From Amantichitinum ursilacus (GTDB lineage: Bacteria; Pseudomonadota; Gammaproteobacteria; Burkholderiales; Chitinibacteraceae): a stretch of 64,000 nt of DNA. Below the pieces are notes generated by a model, which saw nothing but the letters and a program-made list of their open reading frames with translations, did no database searches and had not been told where the DNA came from. Made by a program: the position numbers and the translations under genes. The DNA is taken from contig NZ_LAQT01000001.1 in assembly GCF_001294205.1 (NCBI RefSeq), positions 496,001-560,000 of the forward strand. The letters run 5' to 3'. This document shows, piece by piece, positions 21,679 to 24,005 of this stretch (its first letter is position 1; each line of letters opens with the position of its first letter).

Positions 21679-23225
21679 CCCAAAACAGCGGTATTTCCCT
21701 GTCCACCAGCGGCATGACACTCTCCCGGCGCGGCCCGGATCTGATCACAATGTTGCGCGGCACGGCCGATCGCATGTTCGTGCCGATCAATACGCTGTAC
21801 TGGCTGGTGTCGGTGGTCGAGTCTTTTGTGACCGGACATATGCTTGCGGTATGGCTGATTGGATTGCCTGCCGTCATCGTGCCCGCCTTGCTGGCGTGGC
21901 GCGACGCGGGCGCTTTAAGTACGCGGCTGGTGGTGGCGTGCGCCTTGATGATTCAGGCCATCGTGTCGATTCTGACGTCGGGCGGCGCCATCGAGGCGCA
22001 TTTTGGTGTGTTTGTCGTGCTGGGTTTGCTGCTGATTTATTTTGACTGGAAACCGATCGCTGCCGCTGCGGTACTGATTGCCGTACACCACTTGGGGCTG
22101 AATTTTGCCGCCGGGATGGGTGCGGGGTATTTGTTTAAAGAAGGCCCGTCGCTGAGCCGCGTGATGATCCATGCCGCTTATGTGGTGGTGGAATCGGGCA
22201 TGTTGGGCTGGCTGGCTTTCAAGATGGAAGGCGCCTTGCGCGCCAGTGGTTCGATGGGGCGCTTTGCGTCGCTGGCGGCCGAGGGCGATCTGACCATGGA
22301 ATTTCCGGCGGATTTGCTGGAGCTAAGCCCGATGTTGCGCGCCGCCAGAACCATGCAGACGCGGATGACCGATGCGCTGCACAGTGTGCAGACCAGTGCC
22401 AGCACGCTGGCCGACGTGGCGGGCAGCCTGAGCAAGGAAAGCGCTAATCTGCAGGCGGGCATTGAATCGCAAGTGAATGAAACCCGCTTGATGGCCGATG
22501 CGCTGCAAGACATCAGCGCCGGCGTAGGTCGCGTGACCGAGGGCGCGAATGCGGCCAGCGCGGCCATTGCCGAGTCGGTGCGCATGGCCGCCGAAGGCGA
22601 CGCCGCCAGCGTGGGTGTGAACGCTGATCTGGACGCCATTAGCGGCACCATTCAGGGCTTGTCGAGCAATATTGAGGTGCTGAATACCCGCACCACCGAG
22701 GCCATGGCCATCGTTGATCTGATCAAAGCTATTACCGACCAGACCAATTTGCTGGCGCTGAATGCGGCGATCGAAGCGGCGCGTGCAGGTGAGCACGGTC
22801 GCGGCTTTGCTGTGGTGGCCGATGAAGTGCGCAAGCTGGCCAATAAAACCAGCGAAGCCACCATCTCGATCCGCGACACCATGAGCACGATTGCCGGCAG
22901 CATGGATGGCACGCATCAGGCGGTGGGCCAGGCGCTGGAGAAAGTCTCCGCCGGGCTAGAGAAATCGGCGCGGGCACGGACGACGATTTCGGAGATGGCG
23001 CGCATGACCGCGGCCACCGGTGCGGGCGTGCAGGAGATGACCGAATCGCTGGAGCGCCAGTCGCGCAGTAGCGCGGATGTGGCAGACCGTTTGCAGCGCG
23101 TGGTGTCGCAAGCCCATGCCGCCACGGACACCTTGCGGGACGTGACGGAACAGATTGCGCGGCTGAAGTCGCAGGCCGATCGCATGCAGGACAGTAGCCA
23201 GTTCTTTACGATCAACCGCAATTGA
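21675..23225 (+). CDS. Methyl-accepting chemotaxis protein with multi-TM sensor region
   Basis: A 516-residue receptor. The N-terminal 190 residues form five or six hydrophobic segments with almost no periplasmic domain, including [20 protein letters not shown] and the following HLGLNFAAG, a His-His membrane motif found in a subset of MCPs. There is no obvious HAMP domain. The cytoplasmic MCP signalling hairpin is clear, with its tip at [20 protein letters not shown] and [20 protein letters not shown] (about residues 345-390). The frame is open upstream to 21447, but Met-21675 is chosen because the upstream residues do not form a membrane start. No che genes are adjacent. Confidence 0.88.
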
Positions 23226-23243
23226 TGTCAGCAGAAACATGGC

Positions 23244-23273
23244 TTGACGTCAGGCCGGCACAGTCTGTACGGT
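23244..23273 (+). promoter_or_regulatory. Candidate promoter of the Thr leader transcript
   Basis: TTGACG at 23244-23249 and TACGGT at 23268-23273 are spaced by 18 bases. The start point would fall near 23280, directly before the leader ATG at 23281, which would make the leader peptide nearly leaderless. The -10 match is only moderate. Confidence 0.4.
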
Positions 23274-23280
23274 AAAGGCC

Positions 23281-23370
23281 ATGCGTTCCTTAGTCTTCGA
23301 TTTTGCGACTACCACGACCACCACGACCGCCATGGGCGGGCTGTGGTGCGAATCGGTGTGGCGCAAATAA
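23281..23370 (+). CDS. Leader peptide with seven consecutive Thr codons (putative threonine attenuator)
   Basis: A 29-residue frame begins MRSLVFDFA, has Thr10-Thr16 (codons at 23308-23328), then AMGGLWCESVWRK and a stop. A run of seven codons for one amino acid followed by a terminator is the hallmark of ribosome-mediated attenuation, as in thrL. The RNA shows the needed alternatives: CCGCC (23327-23331) can pair with GGCGG (23335-23339); GGGCGGG (23334-23340) can instead pair with CCCGCCC (23402-23408), which overlaps the 5' arm of the terminator. A ribosome stalled on Thr codons would block the first pairing and favour antitermination. The weak AAGG before the ATG is no strong ribosome-binding site. 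Confidence 0.6.
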   Translation: MRSLVFDFATTTTTTTAMGGLWCESVWRK

Positions 23371-23399
23371 ACGCAAGCGACGCAAACCGATTTCCACTC

Positions 23400-23427
23400 G
23401 CCCCGCCCGCTCAGGACGGGGCTTTTT
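23400..23427 (+). terminator. Intrinsic terminator in the Thr leader (attenuator)
   Basis: GCCCCG (23400-23405) pairs with CGGGGC (23417-23422), followed by TTTTT (23423-23427). It lies 29 bases after the leader stop and 39 bases before the hydrolase start. Its 5' arm overlaps the CCCGCCC segment that could pair with the leader GGGCGGG, so termination and antitermination are mutually exclusive. Confidence 0.75.
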
Positions 23428-23465
23428 AATGGGCGTCGTCCGCGGGTATACCCCGGAGTAATGCC

Positions 23466-24005
23466 ATGTCTGATGCTTTGTCGCGTAGTGCCTTGTTGAT
23501 TATCGATATGCAGGTGGGTCACTTGCACGGCCCTGAAGTCGCGTTCGAGGGTGATCGGGTGGTCGCCAATATCAATGCGCTGATCGCCCGCGCCCGCGCC
23601 GGCGATAGTCGGATCATCGCCGTGCGCCATACCGGCCCGGACGGTTCGCCCATCGCCAAGGGCAGCCCGCTCTGGCAAATTGCGCCGGAACTGGATATCG
23701 ACCCGGCGCGCGATCTGATCATTAACAAAACACGCGCCAGCGTGTTTGTCGGCACCGGTCTTGCCACGCAACTGGCTGATTTGGGCGTGGGTCGGGTGCT
23801 GGTGACGGGCATGAAGACGCAATATTGCATCGACACCGCCTGCCGTGCTGCACCCGAGCATGGCCTGCAGCCGGTGCTGATCGCGGACGCGCATACCTGC
23901 ATGGACACGCCGGAGTGGTCGGCGGTGCAGATGATCGCGTATCACAATCGCGTGCTGGCTGGGCCGGTAGTGCAGCTGGCGACGACGGCGGATGTGCAGT
24001 TTTAA
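23466..24005 (+). CDS. Isochorismatase-family cysteine hydrolase
   Basis: A 179-residue enzyme with the full triad of the family: Asp14 in LLIIDMQVGHL, Lys88 in IINKTRASVF and Cys121 in GMKTQYCIDTACR. It has GGAG seven bases before the ATG. Relatives include nicotinamidases, ureidoacrylate and biuret amidohydrolases and many of unknown substrate; nothing in the sequence decides among them. It differs from the YcaC-like enzyme at 5567. It is the only gene between the Thr leader/terminator and the convergent terminator at 24021, so it seems to be the attenuated gene. Confidence 0.88.
   Translation: MSDALSRSALLIIDMQVGHLHGPEVAFEGDRVVANINALIARARAGDSRIIAVRHTGPDGSPIAKGSPLWQIAPELDIDPARDLIINKTRASVFVGTGLATQLADLGVGRVLVTGMKTQYCIDTACRAAPEHGLQPVLIADAHTCMDTPEWSAVQMIAYHNRVLAGPVVQLATTADVQF

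Follow-up and report, generated by a model that had tools for sequence, protein, structure and literature searches.

In the window, by which we mean the whole 64,000-nucleotide stretch of Amantichitinum ursilacus DNA analysed here, the gene for an isochorismatase-family cysteine hydrolase lies behind a threonine-coded leader that very likely responds to the charging of tRNA-Thr. Sequence, constrained folding and comparison with relatives together point to a tRNA-Thr-charging attenuator in front of the hydrolase, perhaps coupled to a further lock downstream, and this joint reading, in which the arrangement most likely defends the tRNA-Thr supply, is probably correct.

The leader locus, all of it on the + strand, begins with a promoter (23244..23273) made up of a -35 element TTGACG (23244-23249), an 18-nt spacer and a -10 element TACGGT (23268-23273), read from the sequence and found at similar spacing in relatives. 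The -10 box lies 7 nt upstream of a leader ORF of 29 codons, MRSLVFDFATTTTTTTAMGGLWCESVWRK (23281..23370; ATG at 23281, stop codon at 23368-23370), which is likewise supported by relatives. The distance from the -10 element to +1 is usually six bases, so the leader AUG should start at nucleotide 1 or 2 of the RNA (about +1/+2). Since the AUG follows the best -10 call after 6 nt in 44 and after 7 nt in 27 of 78 leader loci (71/78 together), it is highly probable from this predicted spacing that the leader ORF is leaderless, transcription probably beginning at its AUG. A combined promoter score of at least 8 is reached by 85% of leader loci vs 2.5% of shuffled upstream sequences, and among the loci parsed the 6-nt distance recurs in 17 of 18 ThrRS loci and 20 of 20 GNAT loci of the related leaders described below.

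Within the ORF, seven Thr control codons (ACT ACC ACG ACC ACC ACG ACC, 23308..23328) are conserved at the codon level, the first five being predicted as effective. Segment 1 (ACCGCC, 23326..23331), supported by folding and conserved in A2 and A3, is the partner of segment 2 (GGGCGGG, 23334..23340) in the anti-antiterminator 1:2. Segment 2 can also pair with segment 3 (CCCGCCC, 23402..23408) to form the antiterminator 2:3, both segments being assigned from the sequence and constrained folding, and segment 3 is at the same time the 5' arm of the intrinsic terminator 3:4 (23400..23427; hairpin 23400-23422, T run to 23427), for which sequence, relatives and folding all speak. Covariation in relatives adds segment 4 (CCCGC-TCA-GGACG, 23406..23418) and segment 5 (CGTCCGCGGG, 23437..23446), which is the partner of either segment 4 or segment 6, and covariation with folding adds segment 6 (23451..23458), which holds the Shine-Dalgarno GGAG (23455-23458). 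The 29-codon leader, its seven Thr codons and the terminator are present in the sequence just as an earlier note on this DNA had described them; that note did not mention that the transcript probably starts at the leader AUG, nor did it name helices 4:5 and 5:6 further downstream. With plentiful Thr-tRNA the ribosome would reach the stop codon, helix 1:2 would re-form and the terminator 3:4 would halt transcription. With scarce Thr-tRNA the ribosome would stall on the Thr codons and block 1:2, the upstream RNA would take arm 3 in helix 2:3, and with arm 3 so engaged the terminator would fail and hydrolase mRNA would be made.

The switch was examined by constrained equilibrium folding of the window sequence only, with the position of the ribosome masked; the folded transcript began at 23282, one base too late, and the mask for the stop codon was displaced by about one base, leaving the helices unaffected. 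In RNA reaching to the terminator end, the probability of 3:4 is 1.0 without a ribosome and 0.87 with a ribosome at the stop codon, falls to 0.00-0.01 for stalls at Thr codons 1-5, and returns to 0.75 at codon 6 and 1.0 at codon 7. The competing pairings named in the earlier note (GGGCGGG with CCCGCCC, 1:2 and the terminator) are thus reproduced, to the terminator end, as mutually exclusive helices 1:2, 2:3 and 3:4 switched by ribosome position. In RNA ending at arm 3 the probability of 2:3 is 1.0 with the ribosome on Thr codons 1-5, 1.0 with it at the stop codon and 0.54 without it; because this shorter RNA favours 2:3 even at the stop codon, 3:4 has to displace 2:3 if transcription is to terminate under plenty. 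The thr/leu-type logic that had been proposed is thus supported by the conserved Thr run and by folding, with this kinetic caveat. Stalls at Thr codons 1-2 in the longer RNA give a third fold that contains neither 2:3 nor 3:4, and for stalls at codons 5 and 6 in the full read-through RNA the probability of 3:4 is 0.09 and 0.22. The stability of the whole window leader is only moderately above that of shuffles (z -1.76; 12 of 200 shuffles equally good). Across relatives there is so little variation in helices 2:3 and 3:4 that the swapped-partner test lacks the power to assess them (303 and 131 of 2000).

The downstream gene (23466..24005, + strand, 179 aa) is assigned from its Pfam family, alignment, model and fold match. 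Its product matches PF00857 (Isochorismatase) at 112.4 bits vs a cut-off of 27, confirming that the gene behind the leader is a hydrolase of this family and not one of threonine biosynthesis; an NCBIfam equivalog search of the protein found none at its cut-off. Residues D14, K88 and C121 are invariant in an alignment of seven orthologues, and we take them to be the Asp-Lys-Cys catalytic residues of isochorismatase-family cysteine hydrolases, the activity being putative. The predicted model (mean pLDDT 79.6, from a 7-row alignment) resembles the isochorismatase-family structures 3oqp, 5ha8 and 2a67 (TM 0.75-0.79 by query length). The gene looks monocistronic because it is followed downstream by a convergent gene of the inositol-monophosphatase family and by a TrmJ-like gene. 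A conserved operon partner was sought in the best 80 of 385 relatives and rejected: the crude gene caller worked in 59 of those 80 loci, and none of the neighbour genes there is shared between genera (in the other 21 it missed the hydrolase frame). The largest neighbour cluster is confined to Pseudomonas. One cluster, of nine loci, is a membrane-transporter-like gene that lies upstream on the opposite strand (L040, L062, L064, L066, L074, L075 and further loci of Pseudomonas) and resembles by eye an amino-acid permease.

Strong orthologues of the hydrolase (E up to 1e-40) are present in 7 of 43 genomes of the window's family, the window included, and the best 80 of 385 confirmed relatives come from Pseudomonas, Burkholderia, Serratia, Pantoea, Erwinia, Shewanella, Aeromonas, Delftia, Cupriavidus and others. 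With three duplicates removed, the seven family loci and 77 of those best 80 gave 84 distinct loci, and 78 of the 84 carry a Thr-rich leader (at least 4 Thr within 8 codons) upstream of the hydrolase, L042 being counted among them though its run is degenerate. The leader is not a chance feature. Lack of the run in relatives had been named in the earlier note as an outcome that would refute the attenuator, and the opposite was observed. The six loci that lack the leader are L032, L054, L055, L056, L097 and L090, the last of which begins at a contig edge; L054-L056 are Aeromonas orthologues, and in L032, from Pseudomonas batumici, a phosphatase-like gene ends just before the hydrolase. A terminator between leader and gene was found by a strict scan in 69 of the 78, and eight of the nine misses have by eye the same stem with a longer loop, the ninth (L089) being poor. 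Among distant homologues the Thr leader is present in 0 of 21 scored (L026 and L030 left out), and the paralogue L117 in the window's own genome has no leader.

On a 65-row hydrolase tree the leader label needs 4 changes vs 20.5 in shuffles, which fits a history of one gain, with the leader lost later in Aeromonas, P. batumici and Winslowiella iniecta. The tree mixes beta and gamma rows, 20 of its 62 inner branches, many deep forks among them, are unresolved, and the distant row far_L028, on a very long branch, groups with the Aeromonas rows. Judged from these sequences, the Thr leader has stayed with one hydrolase clade across beta- and gammaproteobacteria, including many bacteria of soil and plants. 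Capture of the attenuator by an unrelated gene, one of two explanations offered in the earlier note, is rejected because the leader tracks this one clade. In two Pseudomonas loci (L262 and L266) a leader and terminator survive as relics and no hydrolase was found downstream, which looks like loss of the gene.

Beyond the terminator, segment 5, located 3' of the U tract, pairs either back to segment 4 or forward to the Shine-Dalgarno sequence. In read-through RNA it would mask the Shine-Dalgarno (5:6) or join the freed segment 4 (4:5), so that in the order 1:2 / 2:3 / 3:4 / 4:5 / 5:6 ribosome position would set termination and then Shine-Dalgarno exposure. With near-copies (at least 0.88 alike) removed, 47 of the 78 loci were kept and 45 were usable; in these 45 a swapped-partner test gave -12.8 kcal/mol for own vs -10.5 for crossed partners in 5:6, and -20.6 vs -17.2 kcal/mol in 4:5, each with 0 of 2000 permutations, these permutations ignoring the relatedness of the sequences. 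Reversed-arm and wrong-pair controls attain the observed value in 204 to 1628 of 2000. When the ThrRS, MFS and GNAT loci are pooled, only 11 rows being left after near-copy removal, 5:6 is reached in 1 and 4:5 in 4 of 2000 permutations (reversed, 548 and 1319), a result that leans on GNAT: the GNAT loci alone (n=7) give 7 and 7 of 2000, and the ThrRS and MFS loci alone (n=4) give no support for 4:5 (1482/2000) and little for 5:6 (69/2000). In the folded window the Shine-Dalgarno is mostly paired in both states. Across the 45 loci a 7-nt mask on arm 3 raises its predicted opening from 0.30 to 0.53 (reversed-arm control, 0.28 to 0.34), a 10-nt mask to 0.41 (control 0.37) and a 12-nt mask to 0.38 (control 0.36), the opening varying with the mask length chosen. 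A plain CTCC/GGAG pair is present in only 22 of the 45 loci; covariation at its flanks is modest, where three pairs are equalled in 10, 4 and 19 of 1000 shuffles, and the other five show little or no excess. The helix hiding the Shine-Dalgarno may, on balance, act as a translational lock coupled to the termination decision, with energetic support that is weak and mask-dependent, and the exposure step is weaker than the termination step.

The hydrolase is not the only gene behind such a leader. R1, a covariance model of the leader-terminator region (L058, L071, L076, L089, L095 and L099 lie outside its alignment, and L058 and L076 have no parsed start or arm), gives one strong match per genome (66-83 bits; next best 30.8 bits) in six drawn carriers from the window's family, the search having omitted carrier G029. 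Across 20 carrier genomes it also finds matches before genes other than the hydrolase, and at E up to 1e-5 it matches 51 of 119 Pseudomonas genomes. R2, a covariance model without most of the Thr run, matches 58 of the same 119, its strong matches coinciding with R1 places and L275 alone having been examined among ten weak rows, and 56 of 65 Burkholderia genomes with 125 matches in all. A wide draw of the class gave R1 matches at E up to 0.01 in 16 of 369 genomes (17 rows); the 11 non-window rows examined, L148-L152 not among them, look like ordinary terminators or coding sequence except for L138, and the weak R1 hits L177, L178, L180 and L182 are ordinary in appearance. From the R1 and R2 matches 156 stretches were taken, 68 of them covering the 125 Burkholderia matches. 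The gene behind the scaffold is the hydrolase in 86 (these overlap the 84 loci and are not independent counts), GNAT in 20, ThrRS in 19 (including the G598 fragment L291; L290 was scored as none despite its compact ThrRS), DUF2917 in 13 and MFS in 8 (L163 and L281 mark a single place, and L237 and L243 come from two contigs of the same genome), with 10 unassigned. A threonine-biosynthesis gene lies behind it in 0 of 146 assigned stretches. Judged by these matches, the scaffold is common to the hydrolase, ThrRS, MFS and GNAT genes, and the choice originally posed, between an unknown threonine-linked reaction and a captured attenuator, was too narrow for a leader kept with one hydrolase clade and for a scaffold shared in this way.

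Two further groups of matches differ from these. At about 1470-1650 of L138, a weaker R1 match, a different leader, MIRLTINKRTMKTKTLLAGSRLSVRV up to its stop, and a similar terminator precede a gene identified by eye as aspartate-semialdehyde-dehydrogenase-like (asd-like); the Thr and Lys codons of this leader would suit a classical attenuator. The DUF2917 genes of Burkholderia and Paraburkholderia (L332-L338, L341-L343, L179, L181, L183) have R1/R2 matches, often two adjacent, and a leader ORF, mostly MPxxKxxAIA..ALVR and a stop, with the same promoter spacing and no amino-acid run; these leaders perhaps carry a different stalling signal.

The ThrRS behind the scaffold is a compact second copy. 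It scores 431.9 and 453.8 bits with TIGR00418 (cut-off 383.65) and its alignment to the 565-position thrS model covers positions 170-561 only. A housekeeping-type ThrRS match is present in 65 of 65 Burkholderia genomes (split in G596, partial in G624) and the compact copy in 19 of the 65 (60-100% identity), plus a fragment in G598; all 19 and the fragment lie directly downstream of an R2 match. Their leaders carry a Thr run, and in L297 the frame continues beyond the usual stop. Also in Burkholderia, a Thr leader precedes an MFS transporter (MFS_1) whose N-terminus (MMDDCDRR..) is by eye like that of the compact ThrRS (MMDDFDHR..), which looks like an exchange of synthetase for transporter with the leader left in place. 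In Pseudomonas, Met-rich leaders precede a GNAT acetyltransferase, Met codons replacing most of the Thr run and the ACCGCC..GGCGG hairpin being kept. One genome (G628) has hydrolase, MFS, ThrRS and GNAT genes, each behind its own scaffold leader. Two Pseudomonas GNAT copies (L270 and L274) seem to be decaying; the leader of L270 has Ile codons where others have Met, and its downstream gene looks broken.

Since a second ThrRS and an MFS transporter lie behind the same scaffold, the probable task of the hydrolase is to inactivate a compound that prevents the charging of tRNA-Thr. One sensor of Thr charging set over target duplication, efflux and inactivation is what defence against a ThrRS inhibitor would call for, and our reading of the sequences is that a sensor of aminoacyl-tRNA charging would turn on spare-target, efflux and inactivation genes. 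That the hydrolase itself acts against ThrRS inhibitors is quite possible. The fullest version of this picture, which we offer tentatively, is a modular, leaderless plug-in charging sensor of beta- and gammaproteobacteria with a dual lock on transcription and translation, in which Thr codons would drive the ThrRS, the MFS pump and the hydrolase and Met codons the acetyltransferase, the hydrolase destroying a natural, perhaps obafluorin-like, ThrRS inhibitor. Excerpts of published work describe precedents for the parts: ObaO, a second ThrRS, protects obafluorin producers, among them P. fluorescens, Burkholderia diffusa and Chitiniphilus shinanonensis (PMC11252418); SttH is an isochorismatase-like hydrolase that confers resistance to streptothricin, differing in drug class and with no attenuator mentioned in the excerpt (PMC11702664); and MccE and RimL acetylate aminoacyl-nucleotide inhibitors (PMC7916415). 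Chitiniphilus probably belongs to the window's family (Chitinibacteraceae), because it shares a family with Silvimonas.

The ThrRS sequences refine this comparison. ObaO-type resistance through Ser463 (E. coli position) was considered for the compact ThrRS and rejected: Gly463 and Leu489 are kept in 19 of 19 (the G598 fragment left out), so these enzymes lack resistance of that type; all 19 have Ser for Asn before the zinc-ligand cysteine. A second ThrRS accompanying the hydrolase in the window's family was likewise rejected, each of the seven carriers having a single ThrRS match. Three of the other 36 family genomes have two matches, and in two of these (G003 and G013) the second copy is an ObaO-like one with Ser463; neither genome has a strong hydrolase orthologue. 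A single ThrRS in the carriers and no such hydrolase in the Ser463 genomes would fit a defence mounted by non-producers. In genus g4 of the family (L348, L349) the second ThrRS carries Ser463, the ObaO signature, which suggests that there are obafluorin producers within the window's family.

The most serious competitor to this defence is a plain threonine-starvation response, in which the hydrolase would free threonine or ammonia from an amide, the transporter would import, and the extra ThrRS would capture scarce threonine. The sensor would be the same, and raising ThrRS when Thr charging is low would be reasonable even if no inhibitor were present; however, a Met-coded leader of the same build stands before a GNAT acetyltransferase, which would bring no relief of Met starvation, five of the seven NCBIfam models matched by the MFS protein, all seven below cut-off, are drug-efflux models, and the 146 assigned stretches hold no threonine-biosynthesis gene (the asd-like L138 being a weaker and different-looking match). 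We regard a starvation response as unlikely, and favour defence of the tRNA-Thr supply.

The composition of the leaders bears on two further alternatives. In the Thr run of 44 of the 47 non-redundant leaders, per-pair differences at codon positions 1/2/3 are 0.21/0.20/0.415, and at codons 2-5 of the same leaders 0.61/0.65/0.68; because third positions of the run differ twice as much as positions 1 and 2, threonine itself is under selection. Codon usage in the 78 leaders is ACC 346, ACG 114, ACT 45 and ACA 20. The leader peptide or the attenuated RNA could be the main product, acting in trans as peTrpL of Sinorhizobium does, with cis control secondary; short attenuated transcripts would indeed build up, but the peptides have little in common apart from the Thr run and an AxGG motif, which is also required for the RNA pairing, and the leader is kept before the same gene clade, which makes a trans-acting role very unlikely. 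That only the terminator and Shine-Dalgarno hairpin matter, the Thr run following from an ACC/ACG-rich 1:2 arm, would suit the last Thr codons, which are mostly ACC ACG ACC and overlapped by segment 1, but is highly improbable given the third-position differences and the GNAT leaders, which exchange most Thr for Met and keep the hairpin.

Finally, the leader can be set beside systems already described. With thrL (RF00506, Thr_leader) it shares the short leader ORF, the run of Thr codons and the 1:2 / 2:3 / 3:4 logic, and it differs in having few Ile codons and no thrABC downstream. RF00506 has no match in window positions 23000-23700 at E up to 10; L284 reaches 19 bits (gathering score 55) on the Thr-codon part only, and the 20 loci searched with Rfam 15 have no match at gathering scores. 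Its gene context is not found here either, the genes being an isochorismatase-family hydrolase in the window and ThrRS, MFS, GNAT and DUF2917 elsewhere. In B. subtilis thrS and thrZ, two ThrRS genes under antitermination control, the T-box binds tRNA directly without a leader peptide and low charging raises ThrRS; the T-box covariance model is not among the matches up to E 10 in window positions 23000-23700. A leaderless ORF, probable here, is known from trpL of Sinorhizobium meliloti, where the transcript begins at the AUG, and that alphaproteobacterial leader differs in its Trp codons and in the biosynthesis gene downstream. Closest in purpose is the auxiliary, indolmycin-resistant TrpRS of Streptomyces, reportedly placed under ribosome-mediated attenuation in work by Vecchione and Sello in 2010 (cited in PMC4787780): here too an amino-acid-specific leader drives a spare, inhibitor-resistant synthetase, with Trp instead of Thr and in another phylum, and we know of no hydrolase, transporter or acetyltransferase on that scaffold. 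In Shewanella a Thr_leader match is listed, in the portion of a survey available, before ppiD, likewise not a biosynthesis gene (PMC2659441). According to excerpts on B. subtilis vmlR, stalling on an upstream ORF governs a resistance gene at the transcriptional as well as the translational level, like the dual control proposed here, but in a Gram-positive organism and in response to ribosome antibiotics and not to tRNA charging (PMC9226507). In open-licence PMC literature we recognised no report that describes the scaffold or places a Thr leader ahead of a gene of the isochorismatase family, subscription attenuator surveys lying mostly outside that scope. The class of mechanism is already known; its modular, probably leaderless form and its targets were not met in the literature or Rfam searched.

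The textbook role of amino-acid attenuators is control of biosynthesis. Here genes for a stand-alone hydrolase, a spare synthetase, a transporter and an acetyltransferase lie behind one scaffold, whose control codons are exchangeable and which probably lacks a 5' untranslated region. Should the defence reading prove true, the scaffold would be a signature by which sequences could be searched for enzymes that counteract natural inhibitors of aminoacyl-tRNA synthetases, and would give a widespread hydrolase an immediate substrate hypothesis.
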